Assembly (NCBI RefSeq): GCF_032854445.1
Contig: NW_027017957.1
Coordinates: 62,001 to 126,000, forward strand
Source: Liolophura sinensis
Lineage: Eukaryota; Mollusca; Polyplacophora; Chitonida; Chitonidae
Direction: 5' to 3'
Length of the DNA stretch: 64,000 nt
Under the pieces are notes generated by a model. That model did not search any database and was not told the origin of the DNA. It worked only from the letters and a program-made list of their open reading frames with translations. The position numbers and the translations under genes were made by a program. Shown here in pieces: positions 3,201 through 64,000 of the stretch; position 1 is the stretch's first letter; every line of letters starts with the position of its first letter.

Positions 3201-3954
3201 ATGATAAACGATTACTCAAGAGATTGAAGCGCACTTTACATAATGACAAGTGCAACTATTGCGAACTGAAAGCGATTTCTCCTCCAGTATGAATCAGAAC
3301 AAGTAAGAGTGAGCCTTTTCGTGGGGTCATAGAAAACAGAATATAACGCTGAGATCTTGAGTGCACGACGTGCACAATTGCTTTCGTGGAAGGCACAGAT
3401 TACAGTCTTATTACAACGGTCATTTTCATTCAAAATATATTTCTTTTCTGGCCTATATACATGTTTGTGAGTCCATTTTCGGGTGCAAATGCATGGACAG
3501 GAATAGATTTTTTCCACCTTAAGTTGGACTGGTGTAGACGTCGGTAGATCTTTCAAGGGGTTTAATAGTAATTTACCCAGGAAAAGTGGGTCTAACTTGG
3601 ACTTATAGATTTAATCAAGTTCATATCGGCGATTTATGGAGGCAGAAATGCCACAGTCAATTTCCAGCCTGAAAAATTCGAGCCAAACTTATTTAAAAAC
3701 CCACAAAAATAGACGAACGAGGAAAAAAACAGACGTGCGGCTGGCAACAGAAAGACAGATGGATGGGTGACGGTGGAACGGAGAGAGAACTTGAAATCCT
3801 TATACCACACCACAATATGTGTACAGAAGTATAGGCCTAACGAATGTCTTGTATATAAATAAATATATAGCAGTACGAGATCACCCCATTCTGGAGCGCC
3901 GATTACAAGAAGGAACCGGCAATAAGTAACCAGTCGCTAACGTTCGCTTCTTTG

Positions 3955-4715: not shown

Positions 4716-5045
4716 CTTGGACATCCAGAGTAATATTGACATTCCTGCCTGCATACGAACATATCCATACTGCCCGGCCCGTGTCTACAGTGAAGTTCTG
4801 TATCGTCACTGTGTAAACCTCTTCACCATTGACATGTTGACATCCCCCTGATAACCCGGCTGGTGATTGTGATGATAGTTGTATTGATGGTGTACAGTTA
4901 TTGGCGGTGTATATACGGGAATTGCTATTATTATAGGTGTAAAACCAATTCGTTCTATTGCTGTCGCCTTCTGATCTCGATATCTCACACTGCAGGGTAA
5001 ACGGACGACCGAACACGACATCTCCTGGTGCTGTGATTTTCACAC
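4716..5045 (-). CDS. Immunoglobulin-domain exon of the minus-strand gene
   Basis: A symmetric phase 1-1 exon of 330 bases, bounded by a CTGCGTCAG acceptor and a CCAAG/GTAAT donor, encodes one Ig-like domain of about 110 residues. The B strand reads FTLQCEIS, the C strand NWFYTYNN, and the E-F region YTVTIQNFTVDTGRAVWICS: the Cys-Trp-Cys pin is intact, though the usual DxGxYxC is DTGRAVWIC. A second cysteine pair (NNCTPS, GGCQHV) could form an extra disulfide. Several N-glycosylation sequons (NRT, NCT, NFT, NIT) fit an extracellular protein. It follows the signal-peptide exon at 5948-5990 in frame. Role: an extracellular recognition or adhesion domain by family analogy; ligand unknown. Confidence 0.75.
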
Positions 5046-6876: not shown

Positions 6877-7319
6877 CTATCCTAACACAACAAAGGATCT
6901 GGCACTGTGTGGTGGTATTAACATAATATTAAATACTTCGTAAAGGGCCTGGTATGGCAGGGCGACAAATTGGCCCCGTTGGAAGCGAAACTGATCGCAA
7001 CTGAGTGTGGCAGCTACTGACATTCTCGTAAGGGCAATTCTTTTCTTCCGTTTCAAACCGCCCTTCCTGTTATGCCCTGCTGGAAATACAAATGACTCCG
7101 ACCCATTTCCGGTAACAGGAAAAAAAACTGCTGCCAGTTTGTCAGAAGGAAAGTGGACCCAGTGGCAATTATTTTGCTGACATTTTCGCTGTTCTTTTGG
7201 TCTGTCATTGGTATTCCGGCTCCACATGATGCCCACACGGCGAACCCTTTGAAGTTGTTACCTAATACATTTGCTGTAAGAACCATTGTACCATGCAAAT
7301 TCTTTTCCGTAATTTGCAA
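6877..7319 (-). pseudogene. Possible decayed Reeler-like domain
   Basis: Two overlapping minus-strand frames appear to be halves of one protein. The first (to about 7053) holds TMVLTANVLGNNFKGFAVWA, which resembles the VTL...FKGFLLQAR strand of Reeler domains (found in ferric reductase 1-like and defence proteins). The second holds NCHWVHFPSDKLAAVFFPV followed by GNGSESFVF, which resembles the later C..VTHS...W.AP..G...F pattern. Joining them needs a frame change, so either an intron lies between or the copy is broken. No signal peptide or partner exon was found. The likeness is by eye only. Confidence 0.25.
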
Positions 7320-45582: not shown

Positions 45583-46912
45583 TATTTACATTTTAAAATT
45601 TATTCAAACACTTGTGTTATGTATGACTATTTAACGTTTTCATGTACTGTTAGTCTGCGGACCTTTGTGTTGTATGTTATAAGCATAACAGGCCCTGTTA
45701 TATATGTACAGTGCGGACCTGGCCGAAAGCACCTCGTTCAATGCTCTGTTTATTTAACTGGATGTTCACTGGCTGTTAATTCTGTGTCTAAGAATAGTTG
45801 AATCCACCTGGACCGTATATAAGCCGTGTTTTCTGTGCAGAGTGGAGGTATTTTTGCTGCATCCACTGGGAGCCAGGAGAGTGTGAGACGCTCTCGTATC
45901 GAGTCCATTATTTTGATATGAGCTGGTGATGCCAGTTTCATTTGGGAGGACAGTTTTTTATGCCGGCACCGTTTATGTACCACAGTAGTACTGATGTCTG
46001 GTTTATGCGAATTTCTGCGGAAGTCACGTTTATTGGTGTTCGGATCTTGATTATGATTATACAGTGTGGACTGTGTAATTTGTTTAACACGCTGACCTCA
46101 CCTGACCGATAAGGTCGTCAAGGACTCTAAACTGAAGTTTTCAGTTTTGCAAAGGACGTTCGTTCTGCCACAAGGTGACATTACTCTACGTCTCTGAACG
46201 GCTCGTTTGTGAGCTTCTGCGGGAGCTTGACTGATCTGAAGTGGATTATACCTCCATGCCTGTATTTACCCTGTGTTGTGCTCTGCGGGTGTGACGTCAT
46301 TCAAAGGCTTGATTGTTCCAGTTCTGTGTAACCTGTGTTCGTGTTCGCTAACCGGGCGAAGTACCTGTCTAGGACAATTTGTGACTTGTGTGGATTGTGT
46401 GTTTATCCCATGATCTTTACGTTGGATTTCCTGGAATACATTCCTTGGGATGCAAAGGTGAACTGGAAACTTGTAAAGACCGGTAATACTGATGTGTATG
46501 TTGTTGTTGTTGTTGAACTGTCTGTAAAACTGTACGTCTCATTTTATATATAAAGCATTGTTTACATTGTAATATTGAGTCACTGAGTCTGTTTTCTGTT
46601 GCCGTTTTCAATACCGTAACACTTGTTTTCTCAACATTCCACTTCTTCCACACTTGGTTAACCAAATCGCTCACTTGAAATGTACTTAGGAGTGATCTCC
46701 CCTTGGTTACAAATTAATGCGATCAATTCAGTTGCTCATACAGCACAGGCCTATTTACATTTTAAAATTCATCCAAACACTTGTTTTCTCATCATTTCAC
46801 TTCTTCCACACTTGGTTAACCAAATCGCTCACTTGAAATGTACTTAGGAGTGATCTCCCCTTGGTTACATATTAATGCGATCAATTCAGTTGCTCATACA
46901 GCACAGGCCTAT
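45583..46912. repeat. Tandem duplication, one unit split by a solo LTR
   Basis: Unit 1 is 45583-45614 plus 46622-46753; unit 2 is 46754-46912. Both read TATTTACATTTTAAAATT, CAAACACTTG, TTTTCTCA, CTTCTTCCACACTTGGTTAA, AGTGATCTCCCCTTGGTTAC and CAGCACAGGCCTAT. Unit 2 shows the uninterrupted site CAAACACTTGTTTTCTCA. Confidence 0.9.
45615..46621 (+). mobile_element. Solo LTR of a retrotransposon (1007 bp)
   Basis: Starts TGTTATG and ends CGTAACA (TG...CA), flanked by CTTG at 45611-45614 and 46622-46625. The empty site in the neighbouring tandem unit has a single CTTG, confirming the borders. A TATATAAG lies at 45816-45823 and a TATAAAGC poly(A)-type signal near 46549. No internal coding region remains, so it is a recombined solo LTR, probably of the Ty3/gypsy group (inferred from the TGTTA...TAACA ends only). 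Confidence 0.88.
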
Positions 46913-51950: not shown

Positions 51951-52301
51951 CAAAACTGAAGTTATCTCTCCTGCCGCACAGTCCGCGAGAGAGGAAACCT
52001 TTAGGTTTGTGCAGAACCTGTGGTTTCCTTCAAATCCAGTAAATATGTTCCACATCATTTGCTATACATGGATTGTTTAAAGCCAGCAGATTAAGAAAAA
52101 AAAACGTTTAGTGACTGAGAAGGATCGGACAAGGTGAGGACCACTCCCAAATAATTTCTGCACATAGCCGTCTTCATACCAGAACAGGTGTAGGTCAGCC
52201 AAAATGGGGGCACAATTTGTTGTCCAAACCACAGGCGTTCCGCTCGTTGATTGAGGAGGAATGGGGTTGTGCTTTGATTATAAGGCTATTTAGCTTTAGG
52301 A

Positions 52302-52462
52302 ACTCTGATGACCGTACCCTTCATCAGCACCATATACGATTGACGGTCCCCACTCCTCAAAGGCAATCCTGGCGTAGGTCGTCATGTTCTCAGAAGGGTG
52401 TGTGATGGGTTTGTTGCCCACGAGTTTCGCATCCGCGTCCACCAGTACGCAAGGACCTTTCA
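52302..52462 (-). other. Exon-like minus-strand open frame of unknown identity
   Basis: After an acceptor ATATCATCTCTTCCAG the frame MKGPCVLVDADAKLVGNKPI continues through NMTTYARIAFEEWGPSIVYG to a stop after GYGHQSS. A second frame from the same acceptor (DERSLRTGGRGCETRGQ) is also open, for 24 residues. I cannot decide which, if any, is coding. It lies downstream of the tail-cassette copy at 53626 on the same strand and might be its continuation. Confidence 0.22.
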
Positions 52463-52659
52463 TCTGGAAGAGATGATATATAACAGATAATAACGATTAA
52501 AATATCGGTAGATCAATCTTGTACTACAAACCCTTAACCAATTAGTAAACCTGTTCAAACTGTACTGTCTTGAAACTGTGCGTTCTATCATCGAAGGTTA
52601 ATTCATCTTTTCTATTACCGAAGACATATTTGAGCATAATGAACCTATTTTAACGTTTG

Positions 52660-53625: not shown

Positions 53626-53731
53626 CTGGTCAGGTCTGCGGTTTCCAAGCGGTCATCGTACCCGGAGTTATAATACATCACTTCATCCCCAGCAGAGGCC
53701 GCATTAGCAAAGGTGCCCACAGAAATTTGGC
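53626..53731 (-). CDS. Tail-cassette exon, type 4, copy 1
   Basis: A 106-base exon between TTTGTCTGTACACAG and TGACCAG/GTACAC, phase 1 in and phase 2 out, encoding GQISVGTFANAASAGDEVMY then YNSGYDDRLETADLTR. The copy at 60053 keeps length, phase, splice sites and the NSGYDDRLET core, with changes mostly in the first half: the pattern of a coding exon under constraint at the tyrosine end. The several tyrosines, acidic setting and absence of cysteines suggest a cytoplasmic signalling segment. No downstream partner equal to 59570-59613 was found for this copy. Confidence 0.6.
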
Positions 53732-54389
53732 CTGTGTACAGACAAAGAGACACATAAACGTGTAAACTAGCTGCACGAAACTATTTATCTCAGAATGCTT
53801 TTTATCTGCATTATCGTGTATAGAATATCAATTTACTATTCAAGGAGATGGTATGGATAGCTGTGGATTTTCCAAATGTTCGCTTTCACTGAAATCTCAT
53901 CTTAACGTCATTCTAAGGTTACATTACTTGCTTATCCATCAAACAACTTCTGTCTCAAACGTTGTTTTATGTGAGGAACATGTATAACACCGTACAACAC
54001 AGGAAAATGAGCCACACAGCTTGTGGTACTTGATGGCGATAAGCAAACAACGATACTCGTGTGGCGGTTGCGTAGTCCGATATTCGTTGCACACAATTGT
54101 ACCTGCCTCCGATATGGTGTGCATGTCTGAACATCGTATGTAGGAAAGGTGTCAATAACTTGCCATGATATCATTGTTTTATGTCAAGCACTCCCGTCCC
54201 TCCATATAGAGGAACAAATTAACATTAATCGAAACTTATCTATTTCGATAAATAAATAATGGATATCAATAAATCTTTATCAATAAATATCGTTAATTCA
54301 TTTATCGAAAACGCTACTTTATTTATCGATATGGCTAATTCATTTATTGATGAATACAATTCTCGATTAAATGTTAATTTGGCCACGCA

Positions 54390-54571
54390 TACCTCCACGC
54401 CGTAAGTGGGAAGGTTTGCCAGCGCATGGTCGTGGGCTTCCCTCGGGCTATGCCCGGATTCCACCCACTATAATGCTGGCCGCCGTCGTATAAGTGAAAT
54501 ATTCTTGAGTGCGGCGTAAAGCATCAATCAAATGAATAAATAAATAAATAAATAAATAAATACCCCCACGC
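54390..54571 (+). mobile_element. SINE family A, 5'-truncated, with visible target duplication
   Basis: The element (54401-54560) is flanked by TACCTCCACGC and TACCCCCACGC. The other duplicate copy, near 60818, has the empty site ATACCTCCACGCATAA, so this SINE entered after the segmental duplication. Confidence 0.92.
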
Positions 54572-56275
54572 ATAAGACAGAGCGTTGTTGTATGGGTGAA
54601 CACTGCAGTTAAACAATAAGAAAAAAAAATAGGAAAAATGTGACACATGGTGGAACAAATTGTGCTGGCCACGACTTTAGGGGGTCAAAAAGATTTCATG
54701 TTAATGAATGGGATATGGATGTAGCAATAAAGGATCCAAGACCTATTTTCAAAACAAAACGTCATTTCCAAAGGAAGCCATGTGCAGAAAGCTGATCAGA
54801 GCAAACATAAAGCATAAGAAATGGCAGGACGTCATGTTGCTCAGTTTGGCTTCATATAGATTGTTTCATGGGCCATTCATGGTGTGCCTGCACAAGTCGA
54901 GATGATAGGCAAGATGTGTCGTAATATTCATCAAAATTGGCGCATTAGTATTTGGGAAGTGATGCATGGACAAAATCGTGTCTATAGACGAACAAACTTC
55001 GTCGAGCGGGGTATAATAATGCAATATACTCATGTCCAATAATCACACAACAGCTTTAACTGTAACAATTCGATTTATTAAGTTTCTTTACTTCAATTTC
55101 TACAATTTTTGCCTAGTGTAATGTGAAAAAAAAACAGATATGTTTCTGTCTCTTTATCATCACTATTATTTCATTGATATTGTTGACATTATATCTAGTT
55201 ATATATTAGTTTGTCAAAGGTGCCCTTAAATTATTGACACGAATGTCTCTAATATTATTTGCATTAACATAAAATGTATGTGGTAAAACAGAAGATTGTG
55301 CTTGTAACGCATATGTAAAGTGTTTAGTGTACAGGGGAATCAAACAGACTTAGAAAACTCTTAATTTCCACGAAGTGTAAAAAATAAAGTAGGCTGGTGG
55401 TGGATACAAACTCAACAAAAACATGATCACACCTAAACGACTGAACTCTGTACCGACCTCTGGTGGTCCATTGTTGGCTGCCGTAGAGCATAAGAAAGTA
55501 AGTATATTTACACTGTACATGCATATGTAACTACTTTAAAAGCACATCTGTTTCCTAATAGCAGAAATGATTTGTCTTCTATAAACTATATTCTTATTTC
55601 CAAGCCGGTGACTCAAAAGTTAGCCTTATTTATTTTATATTTTACACTTGTCAGTTTTCATAATACACCTGTACAAGTAATTTGTCTCATAGTTTCTATT
55701 TTCTCCCACATTAATTAAACTACGGGGCACAATTACTACATCTGTTAACCTGAATACACAGATGTAATATCTAGTAAACATTCCAAACCCTTTCAAATGT
55801 GGAAAAAGCTATGGTCAACCGTTTTTAATTCTAAACAGGGTTATAATTTATGCACACATTTAATTCGAATACGAAAATAATGCCGAACATACAACAATGT
55901 GGTTTAAAATAAGAAAATACCAAAAAATGTTCTTTTTTGTACATGTGTATTCCTGATAAATTATACCCGACTGTGGGGAAATACATCACATTAACATTAC
56001 TTCGAAAGATATCAAACTATTGTACGTTAACAACAAGGCTTGGGAAGTCTTGTAAATATTAGGACGGTGATTTTAAAGCCTGGAGTTGTATTAGGACATA
56101 ATGCCAAAATACTTTACAATTGCTTACAGTTCAGAGTCTCGTCTGCAACTGCGATTTTTTGGCAAGCTTTGAGTGTAAATATACTGTTAATTTGTCCGCA
56201 CTGCTGCATATTATTTTTAGATTCGATTCAGTGTTTCTTGCAGTAAATAAAAAATATTTAAAAAGTAATTCTCAC

Positions 56276-56335
56276 CTTTTCCATCCTTTGGTTTGCCTTT
56301 GGTAAGACCAGTTTTGTCACCTTGCATAGAATTCC
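56276..56335 (-). CDS. Tail-cassette exon, basic type, present only in copy 1
   Basis: A 60-base phase 1-1 exon between GATTATTTGACAG and GGAAAAG/GTGAGA encodes GNSMQGDKTGLTKGKPKDGK, a Lys/Gly-rich linker without tyrosine. Its position in copy 2 is replaced by the foldback element at 61481-61921. Supported by splice sites and phase only. Confidence 0.42.
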
Positions 56336-56631
56336 CTGTCAAATAATCCCAAAATGTAATTAGACTAAAAAATTAAATAGAACACCTTTAGCATATATAG
56401 ACACCTAGCCTCAAGTATAATTACAGCAATTACAGAGCATGTCTGTTTTGCTCAGCAAAACATTTCTCATCTGGTATTGATTAAGACTTAATGGAAAGTA
56501 CAAATGGTGAATAAGTATGGAGACAAGCACATACTGGTTCGGATTTTACTTTACATAATAACTATGCTATACTTCCAATAAGTGCATATAGTTGTGGTGA
56601 TATTTCGTCTGTGACTTGTGCTATCGTTTAC

Positions 56632-56925
56632 CTGACTCTAGCTTGAAAATCCACTTAGCTTTACCGAAGGCACGTTGAAAAAAGGCAAAAATGGAACACA
56701 ACCTGATTCACCATACATTCATGCATTGTATGAAAAGAAATCAGATGATAAAAAGAACTACAACTCACAGAGAACATCCAGAGCAGAGACGAGTGTGGTC
56801 CGATGAAAACCTACATCTTGGCAATTCACGTCAGTTACGATTATTATTTTAACTGCTTATGTGAATGCTTTAATAGAGGCAAGTCGTACAGCTCTTAACA
56901 CCGTAGTTTAAAAATAAATTCTTTT
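56632..56925 (-). other. Further exon-like fragments in copy 1
   Basis: A phase 1 frame after CATTCACATAAGCAG reads IIIVTDVNCQDVGFHRTTLV and runs to TTCTCT/GTGAGT near 56771; the matching sequence in copy 2 (near 62090-62140) has small deletions that break it. A 27-base piece (56632-56658, KWIFKLES) ends at CAG/GTAAAC; in copy 2 that donor is GGAAAC. These may be weak or dying exons, or not exons at all. Confidence 0.2.
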
Positions 56926-57277
56926 TAAAAATTCATTGATGATAAACGGCTATTAATAAGGCAGCTACTTCGAATCCAGTTCTAGGTCTAGTGCGGCCTT
57001 GAGCGAGAAGGTTTGTGAGGTACATGACGTTTAGCAGTGGTCTGCATGTGGCACTGGCACTCTGGTTTCCTCAACTCATCAGTCTTAGCCTCATAATACC
57101 AGTCAAGTACAAATGTACAACAAATCCGATTAAAATTATGTCAAACTGATTAACAAAATATTATCTGTCTAATTCCATTGCTTGATGATTGAATGAAGTT
57201 GGCTTGGAATAATAATAAACGCGTGGCAGAAATAAAATATCAAACATGTAGCGCTTAAGGAAATCAAACCTGTTTCC

Positions 57278-57327
57278 TCATTGGCTTTCAGTTTTGTTGA
57301 CTTCGTCAAACACTGAGCCCTCTGGAG
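57278..57327 (-). CDS. Stop-bearing tail exon, type 2, copy 1 (VFDEV)
   Basis: After acceptor TTAATGTTTAG the phase 1 frame reads APEGSVFDEVNKTESQ and ends in TGA (57278-57280). Copy 2 (62963-63012) reads APDGPVYDEVNKTESQ and ends in TAA at the same place, so a stop is kept although the codon changed. The tyrosine of the motif is Phe here. Entry phase equals that of the type 4 and basic exons, so this exon gives a short tail when included. Confidence 0.6.
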
Positions 57328-57592
57328 CTAAACATTAATTGTAATGAAATATGTTTCATGTTCCTTTCCCTTTTGTTATTTCCCTTTTCCGATGTCAGGT
57401 AAGCGGCTTTTCACGCACAACCTATTGCAATGCACATTAATCTACTTATGACAAATTTGTGATGTTTTATATATAAGGAACGTTATACTTTTGCTGTTAA
57501 AACTTTGGAAAATATCCCCTTTTTGTGAGGTTGAAAAAATAGCCACAAAAAAAAAGAAAACATGAAGGTTTGCTAGCAGCTATAAAACTGAC

Positions 57593-57655
57593 CTTTTGCA
57601 GTTTTGCTGATTTTCTTTGCTGTATTTAATTCTGCATAGACCCGTGCTGCTGCTT
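57593..57655 (-). CDS. Tail-cassette exon, type 1, copy 1 (VYAEL)
   Basis: A 63-base phase 1-1 exon between ACCTTTATTTTCAG and GCAAAAG/GTCAGT encodes EAAARVYAELNTAKKISKTAK. YAEL fits the Yxx[L/V/I] SH2-binding pattern of ITIM/ITAM-like tails, although the residue two before Tyr is Arg rather than a hydrophobic one. Copy 2 is identical in length, phase and splice sites and keeps VYxELNTA. Confidence 0.65.
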
Positions 57656-58512
57656 CTGAAAATAAAGGTGATACACTGTAATGTAAATGTATAAATATAT
57701 GGAATTTCACCATAGACGCGATTAAACTGTGGACGAAAATTCCTGTGAATGCAAGTGCTTATTTGTACCTCGTTTCACTGACCACTAAGCACTATTGAAG
57801 ACAAAACCCACGATTGCTTTATTAATAAAAAAACACCAGTAAATTGTATTTCCGGTATACTGGACATATATGAGCATCGAGGGTAACACTGGAGACGAGA
57901 ACTTGCTGTAACATATTTCAGAGTCTATAAACCATAAGAATGGGGTTCACCAGTTCAATACAGAGTGAAGTGAATCTTGTTGCCCATTAAAGTAGTGGTC
58001 TCTGCTTTTTTGAATTACAGTATAAGCTATGGTTATTTAAGATCACTTGCATTGCTATTAAAATGATTTCTATTTTTATTAAAAATAGAAATTTTTATCT
58101 ACTGTACAATATAGTAGGGAAGATTTTCTCCACCTTGCAGAAGACCGGTAAGCCTCATTAGACATTTTTTACCTACTTCCTGTATCTTTTAAATTTTTCG
58201 CCCACCAAACTAAGAATTTCTCCGATCGCTGATGACAACCTTACACACGTATTTTCGGAACGGTAAATTCGCTTTGATGACATTTTTTCAAGGTTATGTA
58301 GAATTTTATCATAAAAACTGAGTAACAGACAGGCAATAACATCAGGGTAGAATTTATAGGCAACTGGTTTTTGTACCAATAGTTGTAAGTCCAAAGCATC
58401 AGCTAAACAGGTTTATGCGTAAACTAAGAGGATGATTCATTACCGTTCTATTAGCGTTTGAGATAGATTATCATTCAATTAATCCTGGTTTATATATAGC
58501 TGAACTGCTTAC

Positions 58513-58546
58513 CTTTATTCTTGTCAACAACAGCATACAACCAAAA
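58513..58546 (-). CDS. Possible tail exon with YAVV motif
   Basis: Before a strong donor (AATAAAG/GTAAGC) the frame FWLYAVVDKNK is open and leaves in phase 1, joining the type 1 exon to read YAVVDKNKEAAARVYAEL. The acceptor (ATATATATCAG) implies phase 0 entry; the frame in fact stays open upstream to about 58620 (MDQMTSGYDADN), so the true start is uncertain. If real it supplies a second tyrosine about 14 residues before that of YAEL. Confidence 0.35.
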
Positions 58547-59012
58547 CTGATATATATATCTCAAATGTTTAGTTAGAGCACAATTATCCGCGTCGTACCC
58601 GGATGTCATCTGGTCCATAGCAAACATTTTGTCCTGTTTTCATTTCATTTTATTCACATATAGACAAATACACATATTTTTCCAAGTTATAAAAATTACT
58701 CGTCAGGAATACCAGCCCAGAGAGCATCATGGTCTCCAACACAAAAACTATCTTCTGATAGGAAAATGATTTTGCTGCATTTCTCGCTTTGTGGCGTTTA
58801 GTATACACTGTGTGGTTTGTGACTCTCTTGTGACTTACAATTCTTTTGTAAGTGAATATGGAAAAAGCGTTTAGAATCTCTGGCATTCTGGTTTATGAAT
58901 GTGTCCAATTTGGCTTAACCCATGACATGAGCCCGTATATTCATCGTGTTGAATGAGGGCGCCATGTTGGATATGTAAACTATTGCACCAAAATGCTACG
59001 GAAATACATATT

Positions 59013-59222
59013 TTATACTGGAAATGGCATTGCGTAAGGATTTACAACTTCTTGGTTTATTGTCAGGACTTTTCGATACAGACAATAGCATCGTTATAAA
59101 GTCACTTGAGATACTATTATAGTTATCAAGTCACTTGATAACGATGCTAGTATCTACATCGAAACGTCATGGCAATAAACCAAAACGTTGTAAATCCATG
59201 AGCAATGCCTTGTCCAGTGTAC
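59013..59222. mobile_element. Foldback element, arms about 95 bp
   Basis: TATACTGGAAATGGCATTGC, GGATTTACAACTTCTTGGTT, CTTTTCGATACAG and ATAGCATCGTTATAAAGTCA on the left are matched, inverted, by TGACTTGA-side sequence CACTTGATAACGATGCTAGT, CATCGAAACGTCATGG, AACCAAAACGTTGTAAATCC and GCAATGCCTTGTCCAGTGTA. Only about 17 bases separate the arms. It lies between the two duplication copies. No coding capacity. Confidence 0.8.
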
Positions 59223-59569
59223 TTCCGTGCCCACTTCTAAATGCCACTAAAACAAGTTACATATTTTATTAACGACTTTTGTTGGTTTGTGTCAAACGTC
59301 ATTTTGTGAACTGGTATTGCGATTATTGACGTCGTACGTACATAAAGGTTACCGGCTGGTATAGGGATGTCCATTTTGACGCATAGATTCATGTGGGTGC
59401 CATTGAGCTGACGTGTTGCTGAGATATCACAGACACCTTCTAAATTATAAGAGGCTTTTCGTTTATAAAAAAAAATTGCAAGAATCAGAATTAAATATAC
59501 TTTGCATTAGCATACGCTGTTATAAACCCAGACAGAGAGCTATATCCTCTTCTAATGGGGTATGCTTAC

Positions 59570-59613
59570 CTGAGTTGGGTATCAGATCCACCTTCTCATA
59601 GACTCCAATTTTT
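59570..59613 (-). CDS. Tail exon, type 5 (VYEKV)
   Basis: A 44-base exon between CATGTCTTATTAG and AACTCAG/GTAAGC, phase 2 in and phase 1 out, encodes KIGVYEKVDLIPNS. Phase 2 entry matches the unusual phase 2 exit of the type 4 exon at 60053, reading TTDLTRKIGVYEKVD across the junction. Its phase 1 exit matches the type 1 exon of copy 1, so the duplicated cassettes can be joined in one reading frame. VYEKV is another Yxx[V] motif. Confidence 0.5.
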
Positions 59614-60052
59614 CTAATAAGACATGGGAATGTATTTACGATAAACAGCTTGAAGAAATAAACATCTTGCTCAATTGAATCTTAAGCGACGTGTAGTAAC
59701 ATCAAATCTGCAATACACTACACAAAATGTATGACTACCCTTACTAAATGTTTCAACCTGCAAAAAACTGCTCTTTCAAAAGATGTATTATCCAAACATG
59801 CGAAAGAAAGGTTAACTTTGAGTCTAGTTATGAACATACATAAAACATGGAACCGGTATTTTATTTTCTGTAACAAAAAGAGGCGGATTATTAGGTAATG
59901 CTATCCATTTACATGGTATAATGTTATGCCACCTCATTTCGCTGCATCTCAAATAAATATGCCCCTGTGTTCCTGTCACGTCCATACTTTGCACATAGAT
60001 GCTATTCTACGTGCGTCTGAATTACAAACGCAAGAAGACAGTAAACATTTAC

Positions 60053-60158
60053 CTGGTTAGGTCTGTGGTTTCCAAGCGGTCATCGTATCCGGAGTTATTA
60101 TACGTCACTTCATCCCTAGCAAAAGCCTTATTACCAAACGTGTCCACAGAAATTTGGT
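60053..60158 (-). CDS. Tail-cassette exon, type 4, copy 2
   Basis: Same 106 bases and phases as 53626-53731, with acceptor TTTGTCTTTAAACAG and donor TAACCAG/GTAAAT. Encodes DQISVDTFGNKAFARDEVTY then NNSGYDDRLETTDLTR. Continues in frame into 59570-59613. Confidence 0.62.
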
Positions 60159-61249
60159 CTGTTTAAAGACAAAGACATACATAAACGTGTAAACTACCTG
60201 TATGAAACTGTTTATCTTATATATGTATATATACATGCAATGAACAATTTACTGTTCAAGAAGATCGTGTGGATGGCTCTGAATTTCCAAGTGTTTGCTT
60301 ACATTGAAATATCATTTTAACATCATTTTAAACTTACATTGTTTCCTTATCCATCAAACAACTTCTGTCTCAAACGTTGTTTTATGTGAGGCGCATGTAC
60401 AACACCATACCTTACACTAGACACAATTTGAAGATGAACCACACAGCGTGTGGTCCTTGATGGCAATAAGCGATTAACCACATTCATGTGGCCGTTGCGT
60501 AGTCAAGTATTTGTTGCATACGATTGTGTCTGTCTCCAGTATGGTGTACATGTCTGAACATTGTATGTGGGAAAGATGTCAATAACTTGACATAATATAA
60601 GCGTTTTATGCCGAGCATTTCCGACCCTTCATATGGAGGACCAAATGAACGTTAATCGAAAATTATCAATTTCGAAAAATAAATTATCGATATCAATAAA
60701 TCTCTATCGATAAATATCGTTAATCCATTTATCAACATCTCTCATTCATTTATCGATATGGCTAAATCATTTATTGATGTGTACAATTCTCGATTAAATG
60801 TTAATTTAGCCACTCATACCTCCACGCATAAAACAGATCATTGTCGAAAACTGCAGTTAAACAATAAGAAAATAAATAGGAAAAATGTGACACATGGTAG
60901 AAAAAAATTGTGGTAGCTACTCCTTTAGGGAATATAGAAGATTTCATGTGAATAAATCGGATATGGATAAAGGACCCAGTGTGAATTTCGACATCCGTAT
61001 ATCAGTCGCAGACTACGAGACGTTCCTAAGTCGATGTCTAAAAAGTCTAAAAACAATTGCCAAATTGCCATTAGTTTTAAACATGCACAAGTTGAGATGA
61101 TAGGCAAGATGTATGGTAAGTTTCATGAAAATCGGCGCAGTTGTTTTGGTGAGGAGATGCATGGACAAAATCGTGTCTACAGACGGACGTACGAACAGAC
61201 AGGATTATATATTACAGTAAGCCTCCTAACGCCTTCGAGCGTAAAGGAT

Positions 61250-61277
61250 GGCGGGGGGGGGTGCGGGGGGGGGGGGT
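61250..61277. repeat. Poly(G) tract
   Basis: GCGGGGGGGGTGCGGGGGGG and more G: a low-complexity run of the sort that is often misassembled. A comparable poly(C) run lies at 12788-12803. Confidence 0.9.
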
Positions 61278-61480
61278 ATAGTAATGATATACACTTATAT
61301 CCTTTAATCATACAAAATCTTTAACTGTAAAAATTCGATTTTTCCAGTTTTTTTACTTCAATTTGCGCAATTTTGCCTAGTGTAATATGAAAAAGAATAT
61401 CAGACATGTTTATCCTCACTATTTAATACTTCATATATATTATTGACATTATATCTACATGTCGTTATATGTTAGTTTTA

Positions 61481-61921
61481 GACAAGTAGAGATGTCATTT
61501 TTAGAAAGTGGATTAAGTAACAGTATTATCGTTAAAAGGTATTACACTTTCTGAATATAGCACAGATCCTAGTGCTGAAATTTAGTTGAAACAACTGCGG
61601 GTTTCGAACCAGCGACCTCAGAGCCAGGCACCAAATCGCCAGCAATACATATCAACCACCTAGATCACTCGACCAATAGGTCTTCCTCTGAGAAAGAAGG
61701 AAGTTGACCGGTTGAGTTTACAGCGAACATGCATTACCCCTCTGATGATCACAAATGACACAACTCCCTTAGACGAATATATCAGACAAGTACAGATGTC
61801 ATTTTTAGTAAGTGGTTCGAAACCCGCAGTGGTCTCAGCTAAATTTCAGCACGAGAATCTGTGCTATATTCAGGAAGTGTAATCCCTATTAACAATAATA
61901 CTGTTACTTAATCCACCTTTC
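61481..61921 (-). mobile_element. Foldback element with an internal tRNA-like promoter
   Basis: Arms of about 108 bp (61504-61611 and 61813-61921) are inverted copies: GGATTAAGTAACAGTATTAT, CTGAATATAGCACAGAT, GTGCTGAAATTTAG, CTGCGGGTTTCGAACCA. Inside, read on the minus strand, are a box A-like TGATCTAGGTGGTTGAT and a perfect box B, GGTTCGAAACC. A 31-bp direct repeat (GACAAGTAGAGATGTCATTT / GACAAGTACAGATGTCATTT) stands at 61481 and 61785. It is absent from copy 1 of the duplication. Confidence 0.75.
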
Positions 61922-62962
61922 GTTTTCGTTTCCCTGGTTCTGGCATGGAAACACCCTTAGCTTTACCGACGGCACAATGAAAAAAAAGGCAAAAATGGAA
62001 CACAACTTGATTCACCATTCATTAATTTATTGTATAAAAACAAATCAGGTGATAAAAAGAACTACAACTCACAGAATACATCCAGAGCAGCGACCAGCGT
62101 TGTTCCATGAAACGTACATCTTGCCAATTTACGTCAGTTACGATTATTAAATGCTGTTTATGTAAATGCTTAAATAGAGGCAGGTCGTAAGCCCCTATGA
62201 CCGGAGTCTAAGCAAAATTAGATTTAAAAAATCCAGTGATGTCAATTGTGATTTGATAGACGTCTACGGTCTAAAATTATTTAAAATGCTGTAGTATACA
62301 ATAAATATTTTTTACGTGAAACCATAGTAAACCGACCAGACCTTGGTGGTGCTTAGTCCACCAGAATGTTGGTTTATGCAAAATATGTGTACAATATAAA
62401 ACAATACATATAGAGTAAGACCAGAATCCTGACGGTAAACGGTCACATGAAGCCAGTGAAATCCGGTCTGTCGTCAATTTGTACCAGGGTTTTACTCTAA
62501 CAATTCATTAAATAGGAGCAACTCACGCATCCCCTACCGTCGCGGACTTGTTACAACAAATGCAGTGATGTGTGAAGTAAGGAACTTAGTACTGTTCTGT
62601 CCCCAGCTAAACCGCTAATGATAAATAATGCTGCAGACATGAATCCTTCTCTAACTCTAGTGCGGCCTTGTTTGTCAGATACGTGCCGTTGAGCGGTGGT
62701 TTCCACATGGCACTCTGGCTTCCTCAACTCATAAGCCTGAACGCCTTATACAAGTAATAGGTTCTTGTGCACGGCAACAAACACCAGTCAATTAAAGATA
62801 TACTACAAATCCCATTAAAATTATATCTAACTGGTGAACAAAGTTCTATTCTTCTAATTTCATTGCTTAATGCATGGAGGAAGTCCTCTTGGAATTATAA
62901 TGAACGCTTGGCAGAAATAAAATATCAAACATGTGTCGTGTAAGGAAATTAAGCCTGTTTTC

Positions 62963-63012
62963 TTACTGGCTTTCAGTTTTGTTAACTTCATCATACACTG
63001 GACCATCTGGAG
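62963..63012 (-). CDS. Stop-bearing tail exon, type 2, copy 2 (VYDEV)
   Basis: Acceptor CAATTAATTTTCAG, phase 1, frame APDGPVYDEVNKTESQ, stop TAA 62963-62965. VYDEV is an acidic tyrosine motif with Val at +3. Inclusion of this exon after the type 1 exon would end the protein with two such motifs (VYTEL and VYDEV), 30 residues apart. Confidence 0.62.
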
Positions 63013-63279
63013 CTGAAAATTAATTGTAATAAAACATTTTCTACGTTCCTATTGTTACTTCCCTTTTCCGCTGGGAGGTAGGCGGCGTTTCACGCACAAC
63101 CTATTGCAATGCACAATAATCTACTCATGACAAATTTGAAATGTTTAATATGAAAGGAACGTTATACTTTGGCTGTTAAAACCTTGGAAAATATCCCCTT
63201 TTTGTGAGATTGAAAAAAAAAACAAAACAAAAACACTAATGAGAAAACATAAAGGATTGCTAGCAGCTATAAAACTGAC

Positions 63280-63342
63280 CTTTTGCAGTTTTGCTGGTCT
63301 TCCTTGCTGTATTTAATTCTGTATAGACACGTGCTGCTTCTT
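63280..63342 (-). CDS. Tail-cassette exon, type 1, copy 2 (VYTEL)
   Basis: A 63-base phase 1-1 exon between CACCTTTAATTTCAG and GCAAAAG/GTCAGT encodes EEAARVYTELNTARKTSKTAK. It differs from copy 1 at a handful of residues while keeping VYxELNTA and SKTAK. Membrane and ectodomain exons of this gene would lie beyond the window's right end. Confidence 0.66.
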
Positions 63343-63745: not shown

Positions 63746-64000
63746 GGCCTCCGTGGCTCTGTCGGTTAGCGCGCTAGCGCATTGTAATGACCCAGGCGCC
63801 TCTCACCAATGCGGTTGCTGTGAGTTCAAGTCCAACTCATGATGGCTTCCTCTCCGGCCGTAAGTGGGAAGGTCTGCCAGCAACCTGCGGATGGTCGTGA
63901 GTTTCCCCCGGGCTTTGCCCGGTTTCCACCCACCATAATGCTGGCCGCCATCGTATAAGCTAAATATTCTTGAGAACGGCGTAAAACACCAATCAAGTAA
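63746..64000 (+). mobile_element. SINE family A, full length to the window end
   Basis: tRNA-like head GGCCTCCGTGGCTCTGTCGG TTAGCGCGCTAGCGC with box B GAGTTCAAGTCCAACTC, body CTCTCCGGCCGTAAGTGGGA, and end GAACGGCGTAAAACACC with AATCAAGTAA at position 64000, where the window cuts the tail. Confidence 0.92.

Follow-up and report, generated by a model that had tools for sequence, protein, structure and literature searches.

Vertebrates have receptors whose cytoplasmic tails exchange or gain tyrosine motifs. The same has been described in tunicates (PMC12065747) and arthropods (PMC6851185). Here we describe a candidate receptor gene of the chiton Liolophura sinensis in which a block of small tail exons bearing such motifs is present twice. 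It lies on the minus strand of a 64-kb stretch of contig NW_027017957.1 (C18:62001-126000; hereafter the window), and coordinates are positions in this window unless a contig is named, with values above 64000 continuing past its end. The assembly was published as Liolophura japonica (PMC11068029), and a correction renames the species L. sinensis (PMC12441733). We read the locus as the 3' half of a type I immunoglobulin (Ig) receptor gene whose block of exons and one further element, L-X-A-B-G, was doubled, probably once, so that the predicted tail gained tyrosine sites, and we give this reading a probability of about 0.68.

Oyster CgIgIT2/IgIT (Crassostrea gigas), like the chiton gene, comes from a mollusc and has five Ig domains, one transmembrane (TM) segment and a tyrosine-motif tail (PMC11999971), and the window gene has this layout when architecture alone is compared. 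The text of that review assigns IgIT an immunoreceptor tyrosine-based activation motif (ITAM), and a title among its references describes the receptor as inhibitory; its passages on IgIT mention neither a tandem family nor duplicated tail cassettes, in which the chiton locus differs. Botryllus FcoR is a multi-gene set of type I receptors of the Ig superfamily (IgSF) within one locus, in which splicing swaps motifs and tails carry immunoreceptor tyrosine-based inhibition motifs (ITIMs), hemITAMs and a core Y-x-x-I/L/V motif (PMC12065747). These tunicate receptors combine Ig with sushi domains and have canonical ITIM/hemITAM motifs, whereas the isoforms assembled from the window are without strict ITIMs or ITAMs. 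The Alr genes of Hydractinia, a cnidarian, likewise form a clustered IgSF family, with 41 genes and V-set and I-set domains called unique (PMC11999971), and candidate genes among them have ITIM/hemITAM-type motifs (PMC12065747). The Penaeus Dscam tail resembles the chiton tail in its many small exons, several of them optional, its alternative stop exons and its single-exon tyrosine motifs; it belongs to one large gene of Ig/FNIII architecture, and the available part of that account does not mention duplicated motif blocks (PMC6851185). Among the matches listed in the open-licence literature, no title concerned chiton immune receptors.

The cassette gene starts beyond 64 kb, and its tail exons run down to about 52.3 kb. 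Upstream of the cassettes, on the same strand, we found five Ig-like open frames (93839-93318, 87176-86808, 81856-81557, 80791-80303 and 76041-75433) and a hydrophobic TM exon carrying RRRK (73612-73487), so that the Ig ectodomain and single TM segment of ITIM-bearing Ig receptors are present at exon level. Pfam assigned Ig-like exons 2-5 to C2-set_2, I-set, Ig_3 and I-set; exon 1 had no convincing match, yet its Cys and Trp columns are conserved in alignment. The initial annotation had suggested looking for receptors with an Ig or an EGF ectodomain. The former agrees with these Pfam matches to four of the five Ig-like exons, and an EGF ectodomain of the MEGF/Draper type was rejected since no EGF-repeat family appeared in the six exon peptides scanned, at E values up to 0.1. 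The count of five Ig domains comes from open frames and could miss an exon upstream of 93.8 kb; frames up to 124000, inspected by eye alone, yielded no additional Ig exon. From 72.8 kb, where the tail starts, its candidate exons follow the TM exon in the order S1-H1, S2-H2, S3, m, V, L0, A2, B2, G2, L1, A1, B1, N, M, G1, T. Ten of these 18 contain a tyrosine, the S-H pair is doubled (motif FENV in one copy and YENV in the other), and the predicted cytoplasmic tail has about 250 residues.

Collinear direct repeats pair 53.4-58.1 kb with 59.9-63.7 kb, in blocks that are 72-93% identical and spaced 5.30-6.46 kb apart. Two collinear copies with minus-strand VY(A/T)EL, V(F/Y)DEV and GYDDRLE exons had been described here at a block size of 4 kb; the copies and their exons were confirmed in place, and the size was not, because the repeated unit also includes exon L and element X and recurs at intervals of roughly 5.3-6.5 kb. 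Exon A (63 nt, phase 1-1) lies at 63280-63342 in the upstream cassette (A2, EEAARVYTELNTARKTSKTAK, open, with AG/GT sites) and at 57593-57655 in the downstream one (A1, EAAARVYAELNTAKKISKTAK). Exon G (106 nt, phase 1-2) lies at 60053-60158 (G2, DQISVDTFGNKAFARDEVTYNNSGYDDRLETTDLTR) and 53626-53731 (G1, GQISVGTFANAASAGDEVMYYNSGYDDRLETADLTR). Length, frame and splice sites of A and G are the same in both window copies, as had been claimed for all cassette exons, and the claim failed for B. B2 (62963-63012) reads PDGPVYDEVNKTESQ before a TAA stop and may be a terminal or a decaying exon; B1 (57278-57327) reads PEGSVFDEVNKTESQ before TGA, has Phe in place of Tyr and lacks a GT at the GT site of B2, with a GT occurring further down. 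The stop falls at the identical codon in both copies. B as a fully kept cassette was therefore rejected, on these in-frame stops and on acceptor losses across the family.

The block also holds the VYEKV exon L1 (59570-59613, KIGVYEKVDLIPNS, phase 2-1). As the initial annotation had noted, L1 fits the odd phase 2 exit of one cassette exon: G2 leads into L1, and L1 then joins A1 in frame. It is not only a linker, since a second copy, L0, lies outside the window at 65303-65260. Element X (58570-58632) is conserved in each of the two blocks as well as in further genes and reads MTSGYDADN in one frame; it was rejected as an ordinary exon because it has no consistent splice frame across copies, the two blocks differing by 1 nt. 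Other copies of this element of about 63 bp, in other blocks and genes, are 90-99% like the window copy; by eye it resembles part of exon G, and it also occurs in L001 at about 500-560. Only the downstream block carries exon N (56276-56335, GNSMQGDKTGLTKGKPKDGK, phase 1-1, without tyrosine). Exon M (55458-55477, ANNGPPE, phase 1-0) has a donor that looks weak by eye and would lead in frame into the terminal exon T (52296-52463, phase 0 entry), which reads MKGPC...MTTYARIAFEEW...GHQSS before its stop and contains a motif like the immunoreceptor tyrosine-based switch motif (ITSM). T had been overlooked in the initial annotation. With B skipped, exon phases agree along the whole of TM-S1-H1-S2-H2-S3-L0-A2-G2-L1-A1-N-M-T, and the frame stays open as far as the stop. 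The alternative route S3-m-V-A2, through exon V (67963-67855), is also phase-consistent; V resembles G by eye (SVTPFGNK / SVDTFGNK). Inclusion of B ends the frame at NKTESQ*, and placing G1 before T ends it at once (DLTR*). The frame at the new G2-L1 junction makes the doubled exons readable in series, and extra Yxx[LIV] and YxN sites would follow in the tail, the second cassette adding the sites of L, A and G.

Genome-wide matching covered the 609.46-Mb assembly in 632 contigs, with only the best candidates scored per DNA or protein search. It gave, with the query's own place included, 20 rows for A and 23 for G (both as DNA matches), 17 for the TM exon and 19 for the fifth Ig-like exon (Ig5). 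The cassette is thus no chance resemblance, as judged by the A and G rows and by exon identity above flank identity in 16/16 single paired comparisons; it reflects a real duplication of tail exons within a tandem family of chiton Ig receptors. TM matches on C18, all on the minus strand, lie at 135.6, 213.0, 302.9, 423.4, 518.0 and 599.2 kb, and four of these six genes carry the doubled cassette, with two A and two G matches each (one of the eight G matches partial). Tails were compared in 19 pieces, the tail of the 423-kb gene being covered in two parts only. In all 18 A copies the AG/GT sites, the 63-nt frame and the tyrosine are intact. G is open in the expected frame in 18/19 copies, one of which (downstream cassette of the 599-kb gene) begins with unrelated sequence, and T is open through its motif in 15/15 copies, with Phe for Tyr in C93. 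Of 18 B copies, five have lost the acceptor AG, 11 have a stop at the common codon and one has an earlier stop.

The history of the doubling was read from trees of the A-B (18 rows), G (19 rows) and L (12 rows) regions. In each of them the four upstream cassettes form one clade with support of 100/100, which rejects independent doubling in each gene and makes one doubling in a common ancestor, followed by gene copying, the likely and simplest account. The L-X-A-B-G block would then have doubled, probably once, in the ancestor of the four tandem C18 genes. The single G of C172 adjoins the upstream clade in the G tree (84/97), so the doubling could predate the C18 genes. The 213-kb gene has a single cassette, which the A-B and G trees place among the downstream copies and the L tree places with other genes of one cassette (100/99). 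Among the upstream copies of the A-B tree, the 135-kb gene pairs with the 518-kb gene and the 303-kb with the 599-kb gene, and among its downstream copies 135 pairs with 303 and 518 with 213 (all starred); this discordance suggests exchange between genes. Duplication also acted at other scales. The S-H pair is duplicated in the window gene and in a C1 gene, and in a C32 gene (15.5-17.2 kb) four VYAEV/VYADI exons follow one another, two of them of phase 1-1 in the exon scan and two fitted by eye, which indicates that single motif exons multiply too. These comparisons support a predicted tail to which duplications of different size added motif exons: a 5.3-6.5-kb block, the S-H pair and single exons in C32. 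The earlier proposal of a receptor tail growing by cassette duplication thus agrees with the duplication and with the Ig and TM exons upstream, and needs correction in that the block seems to have been doubled in one event, not repeatedly. Besides, A and B of the C32 gene resemble old copies of each other by eye (VYAEVNKP / VYAEVNKT).

Exons of the cassettes have diverged clearly less than their surroundings. Pooled over the four genes, paired cassettes are identical at 243/252 positions in A (96%), 177/199 in B, 359/418 in G (86%) and 162/176 in L (92%), compared with flanks of the same pairs at 3551/4335 for A-B (82%), 1985/2860 for G (69%) and 1435/1754 for L (82%). Parsimony changes per site, averaged over codon positions, were 1.0 for A, 0.9 for B, 1.1 for G, 0.8 for T and 0.5 for L, and 1.61, 2.12, 1.38 and 0.69 in the flanks of A-B, G, T and L; columns less than 70% filled were excluded. 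Across the 14 sites of the A, G, L and T splice dinucleotides there was one change, against about 20 expected from the flank rates of the four trees, and the B acceptor changed five times in two sites. Ratios of nonsynonymous to synonymous divergence (dN/dS) were 0.60 (0.41-0.95) among nine diverged rows and 0.96 (0.60-1.88) for T alone. Before the parsimony and dN/dS analyses, rows were dropped for misregister, frame difference, replacement or a stop (all of C162, T of C1, G and B of C310, G of C32b, and in the 599-kb gene G of the downstream and B of the upstream cassette). The counts are not independent, as all rows are related.

The tyrosine sites were classed by motif. An ITSM follows TxYxx[VI] and an ITAM Yxx[LI] x6-12 Yxx[LI], and motifs such as YDEV and YxN favour particular SH2 adaptors. 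Yxx[LIV] occurs in 19/19 A, 16/18 B, 12/13 L, 14/15 T and 3/4 H peptides, and YxN in 18/19 G and 3/4 H peptides, part of the rows of this motif table having been transcribed by hand from earlier outputs. The ITSM pattern is present in 14/15 T copies; the window copy, TTYARI, is in frame via M alone. Of the two isoforms assembled for the window gene, one carries it. The strict ITIM pattern [ILVS]xYxx[ILV], as printed in PMC6851185, and the ITAM pattern have no match in these two isoforms, neither of which includes a B exon, and a strict ITIM or ITAM tail was rejected on this basis. By eye B2 (GPVYDEV) does not fit the strict ITIM either, and across the family the pattern occurs in 0/19 A, 0/13 L, 0/4 H, 1/18 B, 1/19 G, 1/15 T and 1/2 extra C32 A exons. 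Of the suggested ITIM/ITAM character, then, Yxx[LIV] sites are present, with an ITSM-like motif in one isoform, and strict motifs are absent from both isoforms. By analogy with oyster five-Ig receptors, Botryllus FcoR and Dscam tails, and from the types of motif, the tail tyrosines most likely become phosphorylated once a variable outer domain has bound its ligand, and SH2 proteins would then dock there. Optional exons would set the number and kind of sites, B would cut the tail early, and the choice of M or G1 would decide whether the ITSM-like exon T is read.

Several observations weigh against a tail lengthened by serial use of the cassettes. The joining of the Ig and TM exons to the tail exons is predicted from genomic sequence, and the skipped exons were chosen by us, so phase consistency is a weaker argument than it appears. 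V and L0 compete for the same place. Several genes have damaged copies of B, K (a further tyrosine exon) or M, or lack them; no M was found in the 213-, 303- and 518-kb genes, and by eye it has a stop in the 599-kb gene and has lost its GT in C93. The phase 0 entry of T fits M in the window gene, not G1, and fits G of the C32b/C162 type, whose end frame differs by eye; since G1 and T are out of phase, T may be unread in the window gene and in genes without M. An arrangement in which the cassettes are mutually exclusive or optional, a transcript carrying one of them and doubling adding choice instead of length, is a serious contender, at somewhat less than even odds. It would account for B ending the frame in both copies, which would give alternative short tails, and for the two possible continuations of S3 (L0 or m-V) and the two possible predecessors of T (M or G1), and it has precedents in the optional tail exons and alternative stop exons described for shrimp Dscam (PMC6851185) and in the exchange of motifs by splicing in Botryllus FcoR (PMC12065747). 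However, A2, G2, L1 and A1 are phase-compatible in series, and the sequence forces no exclusion.

Other points bear on whether the doubled block is kept for its product at all. The dN/dS of paired cassettes, 0.56 (bootstrap 0.28-1.16; A alone 1.08), is indistinguishable from 1, which leaves selection at the protein level unproven. In A, G and T, third codon positions do not evolve faster than the others. From the downstream cassette of the 599-kb gene the 5' part of G and the tyrosine of L are gone, and the conflict between upstream and downstream pairings means that whole-gene copying is not the full story. All of this would suit a block that drifts as a by-product of tandem duplication or unequal crossing-over, its conservation only apparent from youth and frequent conversion, as would the grouping of the single 213-kb cassette with downstream copies in two trees out of three, and likewise the exchange between genes that the discordant pairings suggest. 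We regard such drift as improbable, because identity in the flanks of these pairs is 10-17 points below that of A, G and L, hardly any splice site of the A, G, L and T exons has changed against five changes in the B acceptor, and the separation of upstream from downstream copies shows that conversion between cassettes was not wholesale. Slightly less improbable, and still unlikely, is that the Yxx[LIV] exons serve mainly as endocytic sorting signals (Yxx-bulky, a pattern that all A and nearly all B and L peptides fit) or as SH2/SH3 scaffold sites in a receptor of neural or adhesion type, and are not immune-type motifs. Sequence matches to solved chains lean that way, with neurofascin, MDGA1 and contactins at the top and Fc receptor-like protein 5 lower (best 60 of 164 chains, E<=0.1), but this resemblance is general Ig likeness. 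A large tandem family with so variable a first Ig domain is unusual for neural or adhesion receptors, and nearly all T copies match the ITSM pattern at their terminal TTYA.I. The doubled, serially readable tail remains our preferred reading. If its exons are used, the logic of swapping or adding motifs extends to a mollusc, and the locus shows how a tail can lengthen by copying phase-matched motif exons, with the frame at one exon end allowing serial cassettes; it is a concrete test case for whether motif number tunes signalling.

The recognition end of the predicted receptor varies more than the membrane-proximal one. Over the 13 genes with both exons, mean identity was 0.60 for the first Ig-like exon (Ig1) and 0.80 for Ig5, with dN/dS of 0.92 (0.71-1.19) and 0.70 (0.47-1.11), respectively. 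In 14 Ig1 exons, segments between conserved anchors had dN 0.58 and dS 0.53 (ratio 1.11, 0.77-1.53) and the framework dN 0.12 and dS 0.23 (ratio 0.53, 0.32-0.88); segment boundaries were set by eye, and eight columns between the sets (ratio 2.70) as well as the ends were excluded from both. As dS itself differs between the two sets, misalignment or conversion could be the cause. These values suggest that the N-terminal Ig domain is a variable recognition domain, positive selection not being proven by the ratios, and the strong divergence of Ig1 between genes suggests a recognition receptor with a modular tail. That both ends are diversified, with a variable N-terminal Ig domain across the tandem family and a combinatorial tail with three alternative ends (B stop, G1-T stop and M-T with its ITSM-like motif) by which a single gene could set how many signalling sites it has and of what sort, is a tentative extension that we consider doubtful. 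Ig1 has 57 match rows in the genome, some of them fragments; 30 of these lie in C1:58.26-58.59 Mb, where none of the 18 Ig3 and none of the 19 Ig5 rows was listed. This second cluster (C1:58264712-58589326) occupies both strands and has many Ig2 rows, and one of its genes shows other Ig-like frames downstream by eye.

A further family gene, marked by Ig matches, lies on C18 near 47-67 kb. Its Ig1 exon falls within the window on the minus strand at 4720-5043 (C18:66720-67043, an aligned Ig1 match), and its other Ig exons lie past the left end of the window (C18:46933-54912). The tyrosine exon K (GLYAVVDK) occurs at 58505-58554, C172:20140-20202 and C32:18148-18209, with phase 1-1 in C32; by eye the C32 and C172 copies look intact and that of the window gene looks broken. 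An interspersed repeat at 54419-54531 and 63884-63996 (87% alike) lies in or beside the cassettes and by eye also in L001 at about 6900-7060. At 46618-46912, a 137-nt match is present in two copies that are 98% identical and 158 nt apart.

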